Assembly: GCA_025454855.1 (NCBI GenBank)
Contig: JALONS010000032.1
Span: 1 to 34,221 of the forward strand
Reading direction: 5' to 3'
DNA: 34,221 bases
From: Arcicella sp.
GTDB lineage: Bacteria > Bacteroidota > Bacteroidia > Cytophagales > Spirosomataceae
Below the pieces are notes generated by a model. That model did no database searches. It saw nothing but the letters and a program-made list of their open reading frames with translations, and had not been told where the DNA came from. The first letter of the stretch is position 1, and the number at the start of each line of letters is the position of its first letter. This document shows positions 6,996-32,843 of this stretch, one piece after another. A program made the translations under genes and the position numbers.

Positions 6996-7868
6996 ATGAA
7001 AAAACTAATCATTTTATCTTTTTCGGCTCTGGTAGCCTTCTCAAACTTAGCTTGCAAGAGTGAAGAATTACAAGATTTTATTACTTCCTCTACAAAAAAA
7101 GTAAGCTCTGCCCGCATTGACGTGGGTAATCCGCACAATACCAATACGTCGGGGCAATACGCGACCATTTGGTACGATAAATACATTATCCAAAATAACA
7201 TTTGGGGGTCAAATCCTGCGTGGCAAAATACTTGGTCAGCGGCTGGTACTGGTTGGTGGGCGTATGGTGTAAGTTCAGGACACGTAAATGGTACGGGAGG
7301 CATAAAATCATTCCCTTCGGCGGTTCGGGGTTGGGTGTACGGTCAGTGGTCAAATAACAGTGGTTTGCCTCGCCAAGTCTCTGGACTCAACGGTTGTAAC
7401 TTTTCTTGGAACACCGAAACTGCTACCACGGGGCGTTGGAATCAAATTTTAGATATTTATTTCTGCTATGACAATAATCCAGGGGGTAATAAAAACAAGA
7501 TTTCTTGCAACATATTACTTCAAACCAATCAAAGTTCTAATTATTACTGGAATGGCTGGAATCAAAACAACGCTAACCAAACCGTTGAATACCATACCAT
7601 TGGGGGCGTTGAATATACCGTAGTAATTACCCAAGACCAAGAATACAGCACAGGGCGTAAATACCCTTGGATAAACTTTCATAGAAAATACGGTACTAAC
7701 AGTATGAGTAATTATGACTTGAAACCCTTGTTCGATTTTTGTAGAAACAGAGGATGGATAAAAACGACAGATTATTTAATCTCAATTCAGAATGGATGGG
7801 AAATTGTGGATGGAAACAACGGAAATTCAAAGTTAAAATCTAATGCGTTATCTCATAATATTTGGTAA
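6996..7868 (+). CDS. GH12-like (endoglucanase-fold) secreted lipoprotein, probable missing nucleophile
   Basis: The 290-residue protein has a signal peptide ending at a likely lipidated Cys20 (FSNLACKSEE; the lipobox is loose). From about residue 55 the sequence follows glycoside hydrolase family 12 order: ATIWYDKYIIQNNIWG (56-71) like the family's YTVSNNLWG, GGIKSFP (101-107) like NVKSY, DIYF (153-156) like YDLF, then YDLKPLFDFCRNRGWI and YLISIQNGWEIVDG (260-273), where Glu269 matches the acid/base of the GTE motif. The strand that should carry the nucleophile (Y-E-L-M-I-W-L in Trichoderma Cel12A) appears here as KISCNILLQT (168-177) without Glu or Asp. It may therefore bind rather than cut glucans, or be strongly altered. 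Monocistronic by its terminator. The family call is by motif recall. Confidence 0.7.
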   Translation: MKKLIILSFSALVAFSNLACKSEELQDFITSSTKKVSSARIDVGNPHNTNTSGQYATIWYDKYIIQNNIWGSNPAWQNTWSAAGTGWWAYGVSSGHVNGTGGIKSFPSAVRGWVYGQWSNNSGLPRQVSGLNGCNFSWNTETATTGRWNQILDIYFCYDNNPGGNKNKISCNILLQTNQSSNYYWNGWNQNNANQTVEYHTIGGVEYTVVITQDQEYSTGRKYPWINFHRKYGTNSMSNYDLKPLFDFCRNRGWIKTTDYLISIQNGWEIVDGNNGNSKLKSNALSHNIW

Positions 7869-8939: not shown

Positions 8940-8976
8940 GGAAGGCTTCGTTCAGAAACGAAGCCTTCCTTTTTTT
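8940..8976 (+). terminator. Rho-independent terminator of sucD
   Basis: A perfect 13-bp stem, GGAAGGCTTCGTT (8940-8952) with AACGAAGCCTTCC (8957-8969), has a 4-nt loop and is followed by seven T residues. Confidence 0.95.
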
Positions 8977-9022
8977 GTATAAAAATTTGTACATTCAACT
9001 TCAAAACCAAAACCTTGACTCA

Positions 9023-10417
9023 ATGGAAATGCCAGATATTTTTCAAATCGGAAACTACACTTTCAACATCACTGAAAGTAATTTTTCAATCGCTACCCTT
9101 TCGCATGAATTTTATGTTGAAATAAAAGCGAACATTGCCCAACCCCAAAAGGCAATTGACGAAGAATTATTGAGTGATTATGAAGATGGCGAAATTTCGT
9201 GGCAATTTGCTTGTTTGGGTATTTATCAAAATGGTATTCCTACGGGTGAATTTACGTTGGAAGAAGATAAAACTACCAATCCCTATTTTTATCTGAGACG
9301 AGGCGGTTTTCATTATAATCTTGACTTTTATGGTAAAATTATTTTTCGAGATGGACTGATGATTTGTGAGGGTGACTTGAAAAATAGTTATGATGACAAA
9401 CCAATCTTTCCCGTAAAAATTTATCAAAAATTTGATTGCAAAAGTTTAGATTGGAAAGATTATCATTTCTCATCAGTACAAGAGACCGAAGGCGTGGCTG
9501 ATGAAATAATCCAGTATCTAAATCTGAAAAAAGACGATGCAGTATTTCCCAGTAAAGTTTTTCAGTTCAAAAATCTCAAAACTCTTACGATTGGTGATTA
9601 TCAGGATTATTATTCACAAACCCACGCACCACTCAGTAATATTCCCGAAGAAATTGGTGTTCTGAGCAAGTTGGAAGGTTTAACCATCATTAATACTGCC
9701 ATCAAATCACTGCCCGATAGTGTGGGGAAATTGAAAAAATTAGAAACCCTCAACGTGATGAATTGTCAGTTAGAAAGTCTTCCTGACAGCCTATTTTTGT
9801 TGCCCAAATTGAAATATATTTTTGCGGATAATAATAAAATCGCTACCATCCCCGACCATATTCAATTATCCAACTTGAACTCACTGTCTATTGCAAATAA
9901 CCAACTACGTACCCTGCCCGAAAGTGTGGCTTCATTGCCCAAACTCAAGAGTTTGAAAATTGATGGCAATCCCTTTGAGCGTTTAGCTGCTATTTTCAAT
10001 CAAGTGAAAGGACTGCAAATGAATATCAAAGACAAACGTCGTTTGCTTGATTTTGAATACCGAGGAGCAGACGGAAAAGGACTTTTGAAATGGGATGATT
10101 CGCAGTTTTTTATGCAACCTAATAGTCCGCTTTTACAGCCTGTTGTTGAAATTATCAAGAAAAATAAGCTGACTACCCACCAAACAGATTTGCTGGCACT
10201 TGCCAAAAAATCGGTTGGTTTTACCATTGTAGGAGCAGAAACTAACGATAAAATAGGCAATACTCGTTTTGGTGGAATGCCAGATTTACCAAAATCCATC
10301 AAATACCCAACTTTTAAATATGATTATGACAAAACCACTTATAAATACGAATTTATTGCTCAGATAAACTGTGCAGAAATAGCTAAGTGCTGTATTATGA
10401 CGGTGAGGAGGTATTAA
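9023..10417 (+). pseudogene. Leucine-rich-repeat/DUF1963 protein, N-terminal part of a broken gene
   Basis: From the ATG at 9023 the frame encodes about 464 residues. An N-terminal beta-rich region of unknown kind is followed by leucine-rich repeats of the plant/bacterial LPxxxxxLxxLxxLxLxxN type (for example LPDSVGKLKKLETLNV, LPDSLFLLPKLKYIFADNN, LPESVASLPKLKSLKIDGN). A DUF1963 (YwqG-like) domain then begins with GNTRFGGMPDLPKSIKYP and YEFIAQINCAEIA. Just after INCAEIA the reading breaks: the last residues (KCCIMTVRRY) are out of frame, and the DUF1963 domain resumes in another frame as VLYYDGEEVL. The stretch expected between these two points in this family, about 30-40 residues, is absent. 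A longer start at 8975 is a TTG inside the sucD terminator and was not used. The intact parent probably took part in intracellular protein binding; its role is unknown. Confidence 0.8.
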
Positions 10418-30847: not shown

Positions 30848-31885
30848 ATGCGAATAGACCAACCAACCATAGAACGTATCCGACAAAGTGCTGACATCGC
30901 CGACGTAATTGGCGATTATGTGTCTTTGAAGAAAAAAGGAGCGAACCTCTGGGCGTGTTGTCCTTTTCACGGAGAGAAATCGCCCTCATTTTCGGTATCG
31001 CCCGCCAAAGGTATTTATAAATGTTTTGGCTGTGGAAAAGCGGGAGATTCCATTCGTTTTATCATGGATATTGAAGGCTTGGGCTACGGCGAAGCCTTAC
31101 GGCATTTGGCGAAAAAATACGGTATCGAAATCCAAGAGACCGTTCTGACGGATGAACAATTACAAGCCCAAAACGAACGAGAAAGTTTACTAATCGTTCT
31201 TAATTACGCCAAAAATTACTATCAAAATAACCTTTTTAAGCACGAAGAAGGTCAATCAATTGGTTATCCATATTTCAAAGAAAGAGGCTTTTCGGATAAA
31301 ACGATTAACACTTTTGAGCTGGGCTACAGCCTTGAAGGTTGGGACGCATTCACGAAAGAAGCCCTTAAAAATGGTTATAGCTTAGACATTTTGGCGAAGG
31401 CAGGATTGACAATTCTGAAAGAAAACGAACAAACCGCTAACCCAAATGCTCAAAAAGCCTTCGACCGTTTTCGTAACCGAGTAACCTTTCCGATTCATAA
31501 CGTTTCGGGAAAAGTGATTGCGTTCGGAGCGAGAATCTTGAAAGCGGATAAATCACAAGCTAAATATCTCAACTCGCCCGAGACCGAAGTTTACCATAAA
31601 TCAAACGTTCTTTATGGTATTTTTCAAGCCAAGAATGCTATTCGTACCAAAGATGTTTGCTATTTGGTGGAAGGTTATACGGATGTCATTTCTTTGCATC
31701 AAGCAGGTATTGAAAACGTAGTGGCATCTTCGGGAACGTCCTTGACCGTTGAGCAAATACGATTGATTGGACGTTTTACCCAAAATATCACCGTTTTGTA
31801 CGATGGTGATACCGCAGGTATTAAAGCATCTCTGAGAGGGATGGATATGATTTTGGAAGAAGGGCTGAATGTGAAATTATTTTAA
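30848..31885 (+). CDS. dnaG: DNA primase, N-terminal part (gene interrupted in the Toprim domain)
   Basis: DnaG makes RNA primers at the replication fork. The 345-residue frame has the zinc finger (Cys38, His41 in CPFHGEKSPSF; Cys59, Cys62 in YKCFGCGKAGD), the RNA-polymerase basic region (FDRFRNRVTFPIHNVSGKVI, AKYLNSPETEVY) and the first two Toprim motifs: Glu275 in VEGYTDVISLHQ and Asp319-Gly-Asp321 in VLYDGDTAGIKAS. It then stops at GLNVKLF. Family members continue with a third metal-binding motif (P-x-G-x-D-P-D) and about 30 more residues before the text that resumes here in another frame at 31886. This essential site is therefore absent. The ATG at 30848 is preceded by a -7 box. Either a second primase gene exists, or the lesion is a sequence error. 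Confidence 0.9.
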   Translation: MRIDQPTIERIRQSADIADVIGDYVSLKKKGANLWACCPFHGEKSPSFSVSPAKGIYKCFGCGKAGDSIRFIMDIEGLGYGEALRHLAKKYGIEIQETVLTDEQLQAQNERESLLIVLNYAKNYYQNNLFKHEEGQSIGYPYFKERGFSDKTINTFELGYSLEGWDAFTKEALKNGYSLDILAKAGLTILKENEQTANPNAQKAFDRFRNRVTFPIHNVSGKVIAFGARILKADKSQAKYLNSPETEVYHKSNVLYGIFQAKNAIRTKDVCYLVEGYTDVISLHQAGIENVVASSGTSLTVEQIRLIGRFTQNITVLYDGDTAGIKASLRGMDMILEEGLNVKLF

Positions 31886-31898
31886 AGCAGAGCTTTCC

Positions 31899-32843
31899 TT
31901 GAAAGAAGCGGGTAGTGACCCTTTCAAACGAGCCGAGTTGATAAAAAACATGGTAGGTAGTATTTCTAAAATTCCTGACTCCATAAAGCGGTCGGTATTT
32001 TTTCAGAAAACTGCCAATTTGATGCAGATTGATGAGCAATTACTGATTTCTGAAAGTAATAAAGTTGCTATTGAACGAGCCAAACAAAAGGATAAAGACC
32101 GAGAACGAGAACAAAATCGCCAACGTTTGCAGAATGATTTGCCGAAGGGCGTAACCGTCAGTAAACCTGTACCACCTACTTTTGATGCGGGCGGTATGAT
32201 GAGTTTTGAAGAAGGAGAAGAATTTTCGGGTTTCCCGACGGATTTTGCACCAACGCAAAATGTGGCTACACCCACGATTGATTCGCCCGAAGCACCCCGA
32301 ACAACCATTTCGGGAATGGCTTTGCAGGAATCCGAATGTATCCGTTTATTAATCAATCACGGTACGAAAGAAGTGGACCCTGGTGTGGCACCGGGGGTTA
32401 CTTTAGCCCAATATATCCTTACCGAAATAGATGGTTTGAACTTTGAGACCCCTATTTATCAAGAAATTCTCCGTACTTTTCGTGAACATTTTTCGCAAGG
32501 AAAAATTTTAGATGCCCAGTATTTTATCGGACATCCCGTATCTAATATTCAGATGGAAGCCATTAATCTTTCAACCGAAAGGTACAGTATTTCAGAATCA
32601 TGGGTAAAGCACGATATTCATGTTCCTACCGAAGACGATAAATTAGCCGATTTAGCTTTTCAAAATATTTTACGGCTGAAAAAAGCCTTCAACGAGCAGC
32701 AAATGAAGCAGTTAATGAAACAAATATCCCAAACCAAAGATATTGATGAGCAATCTCGATTGTTGGAGATGTTTATGCACGCTAAAGAAATTGAAAAACA
32801 AATTGCTAAAGAATTAGGGACGGTAGTGAAGTATAGTAGATAA
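31899..32843 (+). CDS. dnaG: DNA primase, C-terminal part (out of frame with the N-terminal part)
   Basis: This frame resumes the DnaG sequence 14 nt after the first stop: before the TTG at 31899 it reads FKAELS, then LKEAGSDPFKRAELIKNM and ISKIPDSIKRSVFFQKTANL, the normal region after the Toprim domain. A charged linker follows (KDREREQNRQRLQ), then the helicase-binding C-terminal domain, for example ALQESECIRLLINHGTKEVD, and a final coiled part (KDIDEQSRLLEMFMHAKEIE). The 314 residues alone have no catalytic site. The two parts total about 660 residues, near the length of related primases minus the missing piece. Independent translation from TTG is possible in principle but would not rebuild the active site. 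Confidence 0.85.
   Translation: MKEAGSDPFKRAELIKNMVGSISKIPDSIKRSVFFQKTANLMQIDEQLLISESNKVAIERAKQKDKDREREQNRQRLQNDLPKGVTVSKPVPPTFDAGGMMSFEEGEEFSGFPTDFAPTQNVATPTIDSPEAPRTTISGMALQESECIRLLINHGTKEVDPGVAPGVTLAQYILTEIDGLNFETPIYQEILRTFREHFSQGKILDAQYFIGHPVSNIQMEAINLSTERYSISESWVKHDIHVPTEDDKLADLAFQNILRLKKAFNEQQMKQLMKQISQTKDIDEQSRLLEMFMHAKEIEKQIAKELGTVVKYSR

Follow-up and report, generated by a model that had tools for sequence, protein, structure and literature searches.

GH-fold pseudoenzymes have been described before; a natural GH12 protein lacking its nucleophile, bacterial lipoproteins included, was not found in searches of open-access papers. Among active members, GuxA GH12 has D114 as a strictly conserved active-site Asp, E131 as the nucleophile and E216 as the acid/base, according to PMC9181691. 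For T. maritima Cel12B, PMC3936955 names Glu131, Met133 and Trp135 as conserved, with labels for the two catalytic glutamates that are the reverse of those in PMC9181691. Substitutions reported for TMDG_GH12-2 show the weight of these positions: replacing either catalytic Glu, or the motif Met (M149A), with Ala inactivated the enzyme completely, and the same replacement of the motif Trp left 1.5% activity (PMC12265866). A GH12-derived protein of Phytophthora sojae, PsXLP1, is described as being without endoglucanase activity (PMC7773600); it has an active paralogue and works as a decoy that draws off a plant inhibitor.

The window analyzed here, a 34,221-nt stretch of DNA from an Arcicella sp. 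contig (JALONS010000032.1), encodes a protein that is related in sequence to GH12 and has an asparagine where these enzymes carry their nucleophile. Its features are given below, where A2 denotes an 18-row alignment of GH12-type proteins.

6996..7868, + strand: coding sequence (290 aa) of a GH12-fold predicted lipoprotein without the nucleophile; open reading frame, phmmer match to GH12 (E 4.2e-14) and fold search.
6996..7055, + strand: predicted lipoprotein signal peptide, residues 1-19, and lipobox Cys20 (SNLAC); read from the sequence.
7053..7067, + strand: C-K-S-E-E from the lipidated Cys onward, a candidate signal for surface exposure like the Bacteroidota lipoprotein export signal (LES); compared with the LES of PMC5080379 and SusD N-termini encoded in the same genome.
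7134..7865, + strand: GH12 beta-jelly-roll domain, residues 47-290; VIA-align range 47/48-290 on the model, Z 29.6 to 1h0b.
7452..7454, + strand: D153, retained counterpart of the GH12 active-site Asp (GuxA D114); phmmer alignment to 7mkr, role from PMC9181691.
7500..7532, + strand: beta-strand 169-179 (ISCNILLQTNQ), the E-x-M-x-W strand of GH12; DSSP on the model and alignment.
7509..7511, + strand: N172 (AAC), replacing the catalytic nucleophile Glu; phmmer, MAFFT, codon reading and A2 columns.
7515..7517, + strand: L174, replacing the invariant Met of E-x-M-x-W; A2 columns.
7521..7523, + strand: Q176, replacing the Trp of E-x-M-x-W; A2 columns.
7542..7568, + strand: aromatic insertion, residues 183-191 (YYWNGWNQN), at the site of the GH12 V-x-P-x-G loop; alignment.
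7800..7802, + strand: E269 (GAA), retained counterpart of the acid/base Glu (GuxA E216); invariant in 18/18 A2 rows.

The kinship with GH12, which the original prediction had read from the order of motifs, was borne out by several searches. When phmmer was run against PDB sequences, all seven matches were GH12-type cellulases, led by R. marinus Cel12A (2bw8, E 4.2e-14; 1h0b, E 6.2e-14) and including GuxA (7mkr, E 1.5e-12), and an hhalign profile-profile comparison with GH12 gave a probability of 99.9. The Pfam model PF01670 matched neither the protein, even at E up to 10, nor anything else in its own genome; NCBIfam PRK06215 matched the protein weakly (E 6.7e-6) and 17 of the 18 A2 rows. A structure was then predicted by AlphaFold2 with A2 as input, so the fold described here is that of a model. 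Its mean pLDDT was 80.1, falling below 50 in the signal peptide and linker (residues 1-45) and reaching 94 in block 171-180. The best 50 Foldseek rows were all GH12 by entry title (E 2.1e-18 to 1h0b), and VIA-align superposed the model on R. marinus Cel12A (1h0b) with Z 29.6 and an rmsd of 1.8 Å over 221 residues; GuxA gave Z 28.3. Every VIA-align row with Z > 22 was GH12, with GH11 xylanases next at Z ~20; GH11 and GH12 belong to one clan. On this predicted model, residues 47-290 adopt the GH12 fold.

The alignment A2 was drawn from 29 ORFs with a GH12 match, of which nine repeated the same gene under another locus; 18 of the 20 distinct ORFs were used. The two left out, L005:1468-2250 and L017:87-1313, are near copies of included rows and both have the Glu nucleophile. 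A further alignment, A3, took in 13 of the 16 Glu-type rows. In the printed phmmer alignment to 7mkr, D114, E131 and E216 of GuxA paired with D153, N172 and E269, and MAFFT and profile-profile (hhalign) alignments agreed with this pairing. E269, which lies in QNGWEIVDG and had been named beforehand as a surviving acid/base, is thus retained. The nucleophile column holds Asn in the window protein and in one orthologue, L001, and Glu in the 16 other rows (16/16). Since the same change occurs in L001 and all other rows keep Glu, the substitution is not a chance one. The original prediction had further claimed that the segment SCNILLQT (residues 170-177, window 7503-7526, within the 7491-7530 first given for it) offers no acid nearby, and DSSP on the model agreed: strand 169-179 contains neither Asp nor Glu. 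No register along the strand can therefore supply an acid, and a register shift was ruled out as a source of one.

The nucleophile is not the only position altered. The 16 Glu-type rows of A2 agree fully in ten columns, and at five of these the window protein and L001 show the same changes (Y106F, W155Y, E172N, M174L and W176Q), while W70, Q77, P107, G267 and E269 are kept, as is the near-invariant D153. As a control, each Glu-type row was left out in turn, and it departed from the remainder at 0-2 of the columns invariant there. Compared with Cel12A and GuxA, with which it shares the fold, the acid/base Glu, the Asp and the order of motifs, the window protein thus differs in Asn172, in having Leu and Gln for the Met and Trp of E-x-M-x-W, in a Tyr for the Trp of D-x-W, and in an Asn-rich aromatic insertion in place of the V-x-P-x-G loop. 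This insertion, YYWNGWNQN, recurs in L001 save for the context of its last residue and is a possible glycan platform. The strand had been expected to read E-[LI]-M-I-W-L, and its departure from that pattern stands for the Glu and the Met; the Trp to Gln change means little by itself, as TMDG_GH12-1, from a hyperthermophilic euryarchaeon, naturally carries Gln at the motif Trp place and is active, its catalytic glutamates being labelled in a figure (PMC12265866). The lost Glu argues for inactivity of the window protein, and the Met to Leu change would do so too, less surely.

To what extent is the Asn form shared? In a pattern scan of genome contigs, the sole confirmed relative was L001, an orthologue from a Cytophagales MAG with 71% identity over the full length. 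L001 and the match in the G028 genome are one gene, G028 belonging to the window's family but to a different genus. The gene was present in 2/222 genomes of that family, its own included, and in 1/8 genomes of the genus, namely its own. Six of 390 sampled genomes of the order matched, being its own and those of L007 (E 6e-39), L008, L009, L010 and L011; the five others have Glu, in strands that include GELMVWIN, YELMIWL and YEIMLWM. Only the window's own gene was found among 395 sampled genomes of the class. The phylum search matched 4/395 genomes and the family of G633 gave three matches in 8 genomes; the three others in the phylum and all three in the family have Glu. Asn-type relatives beyond L001/G028 were found in none of the family, order, class, phylum, genus and G633-family samples nor in the pattern scan, samples that overlap and of which the order and class searches scored the best 6 candidates per genome, so that weak relatives may be missed. 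A check for orthologues, suggested with the original prediction, thus yielded a single one with the same Asn, more distant relatives keeping Glu. The expectation that GH12 is uncommon in Bacteroidota also proved sound, PF01670 matching 10/390 sampled genomes of the phylum. As a separate observation, two genomes of family f18 (G403 and G334) carry two tandem GH12 genes (L017, L019, L023 and L024), of which the first has additional N-terminal sequence and both keep the nucleophile Glu. No phage matched the protein and no match in viral contigs was confirmed; plasmid matches were limited to two GH12-type genes of Burkholderia plantarii at 25.6% identity, and a mobile or phage origin was rejected on these grounds.

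In a maximum-likelihood tree, the window protein and L001 paired with support of 100/100 and joined L007 with moderate support (86/90). The stem of the pair was 1.28 changes per column long, and hence much of the change predates the split of the two species. Between the window gene and L001, dN was 0.19 and dS 3.3 over the whole gene; over the domain, dN was 0.16 with dS saturated, so that the ratio is imprecise but well below 1. Judged by these codon comparisons, the gene is under purifying selection since that split.

The N-terminus bears on where the protein resides. In C. canimorsus, the minimal LES is K-(D/E)2 or Q-A-(D/E)2 and the optimum C-X-K-(D/E)2-X, while in other species a polar residue is followed by acids (PMC5080379). 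The window protein has the lipobox SNLAC followed by K-S-E-E, which resembles the published C-X-K-(D/E)2-X but is not identical to it, and L001 has ISC at the same place with C-K-D-D. The SusD N-termini read from the window's own genome include C-KDYLE and C-KDLLE, the others being without this pattern. The predicted lipoprotein is likely surface-exposed, on the reading of these N-termini.

The window gene lies between an HlyD/ABC/MacB exporter and sucD, with hemD, plsX, fabH, accC and dnaG further on. No SusC/SusD pair was seen beside it, and it is not within a polysaccharide utilization locus; the 19 SusD-family matches in its genome are all on other contigs. Two other genes of the window appear interrupted: dnaG (30848-32843, + strand) changes frame near 31885 and so forms two separate ORFs, likely a draft-contig indel or a broken gene, and an LRR and DUF1963 gene (8975-10417, + strand) ends early and seems to resume in another frame near 10417, a probable indel. 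In L001, an ORF for a GH9 cellulase (CelD_N, GH9, fn3) lies 208 bp downstream on the same strand, and L007, which keeps Glu, likewise has, downstream on the same strand, a GH9 gene whose product bears a T9SS sorting tail. The two GH9 proteins share 49% identity over 346 aligned columns, that of L007 being cut by the locus end. The GH12-GH9 pairing may therefore predate the loss of the nucleophile, although two instances would also fit the genes having been brought together independently. No GH9 match was found in the window's genome, which is 84% complete. In G028 (contig 289, L036:3-4105), the ORF with the GH9 domain terminates within repeats, where a second ORF of the same repeat type overlaps it in another frame; a very long multi-domain protein has probably been interrupted by a frame break here.

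Considering these results together, we think it probable that the protein is a surface beta-glucan-binding pseudoenzyme derived from a GH12 endoglucanase; surface location, inactivity and glucan binding are all points that we infer. A GH12 endoglucanase ancestor would have given rise to a lipoprotein that is probably exported to the cell surface. Since the nucleophile Glu is now Asn172, the retaining double-displacement mechanism would not be usable. The old substrate groove, partly preserved in W70, Q77, P107 and E269 and supplemented by the conserved aromatic insertion YYWNGWNQ, would hold a chain of the beta-1,4-glucan type (cellulose, mixed-linkage glucan or xyloglucan) for other enzymes, the obvious partner in the L001 genome being the GH9 cellulase encoded just downstream. 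The ligand may differ from an ordinary beta-glucan, since W155 and Y106, likely substrate contacts, and the V-x-P-x-G loop are changed. Against binding, the window gene sits among housekeeping genes (sucD, hemD, an ABC exporter) with no GH9 found in its own genome (84% complete), and the retention of both E269 and D153 is more than a pure binder needs.

Similarities to described non-catalytic proteins are partial. Like the surface glycan-binding lipoproteins (SGBPs) of Bacteroidota, the window protein is a predicted lipoprotein, likely at the surface, and in one genome (L001) a glycan hydrolase gene is adjacent; unlike them, it has no SusC/SusD pair beside its gene, and its fold is GH12. The SGBP folds known to us are other than GH12. 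PsXLP1 shares GH12 descent and a lack of activity, which for the window protein is predicted. It reportedly lost its activity by C-terminal truncation, whereas the window protein is a lone bacterial lipoprotein with a point loss of the nucleophile.

The original prediction had left the choice between a glucan-binding protein and an enzyme of changed mechanism, and both readings stay, with binding favored. The best-surviving alternative, which we regard as unlikely, is that the protein is still an enzyme, acting by inverting single displacement. E269 would then be the general acid, the general base would be D153 or an acid of the altered loop 206-221, and Asn172, being smaller than Glu, would make space for a water molecule. 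This reading is best supported by the retention of E269 and D153 in the window protein and L001 alike. Further acids (E198, E206, D214 and E216) are also kept in both, and the purifying selection on the gene fits an enzyme as well. However, M174L and W155Y are also changed, and Met to Ala in TMDG_GH12-2 abolishes activity (PMC12265866). It is slightly less likely again that a GH12-fold protein without the retaining nucleophile became such an enzyme of different, inverting mechanism and reached fixation in two genera belonging to a single Cytophagales family. We know of no inverting GH12.

A decoy or protective paralogue, binding an inhibitor or competitor protein rather than a glycan as PsXLP1 does for XEG1, has a documented precedent in the catalytically dead GH12 decoy of Phytophthora (PMC7773600), but no active GH12 to protect was found in the same genome (84% complete) and there is no plant-pathogen context, which makes this reading improbable. 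Still more improbable is substrate-assisted catalysis on a 2-acetamido sugar of the chitin or peptidoglycan type, in which Asn172 would help the acetamido group and E269 serve as acid/base. An Asn assists such a reaction in GH85, and the window protein has Asn where the nucleophile would stand while retaining its acid/base; however, Pfam and NCBIfam scans gave no match to an enzyme of this kind, and the closest kin are glucanases, some beside GH9, with no pointer to an N-acetyl substrate. A decaying gene, or an Asn produced by assembly error, is hardly credible: the draft contig does have frame breaks elsewhere (in dnaG and the LRR/DUF1963 gene), but the ORF is intact, the independent genome of L001 has the same Asn at 71% identity, dN is low with dS saturated, and Glu to Asn (AAC) takes two base changes; a pseudogene was rejected.

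A binding pseudoenzyme derived from GH12 thus remains the reading that we favor. Since the Pfam GH12 model misses the window protein, counts of such pseudoenzymes may be too low. A natural protein that has lost its nucleophile but retains the acid/base would offer a clean evolutionary test, either of a cellulase turning into a binding protein or of a GH12 scaffold changing its mechanism, and the Glu-bearing L007, beside its GH9 gene, would be a ready comparator.
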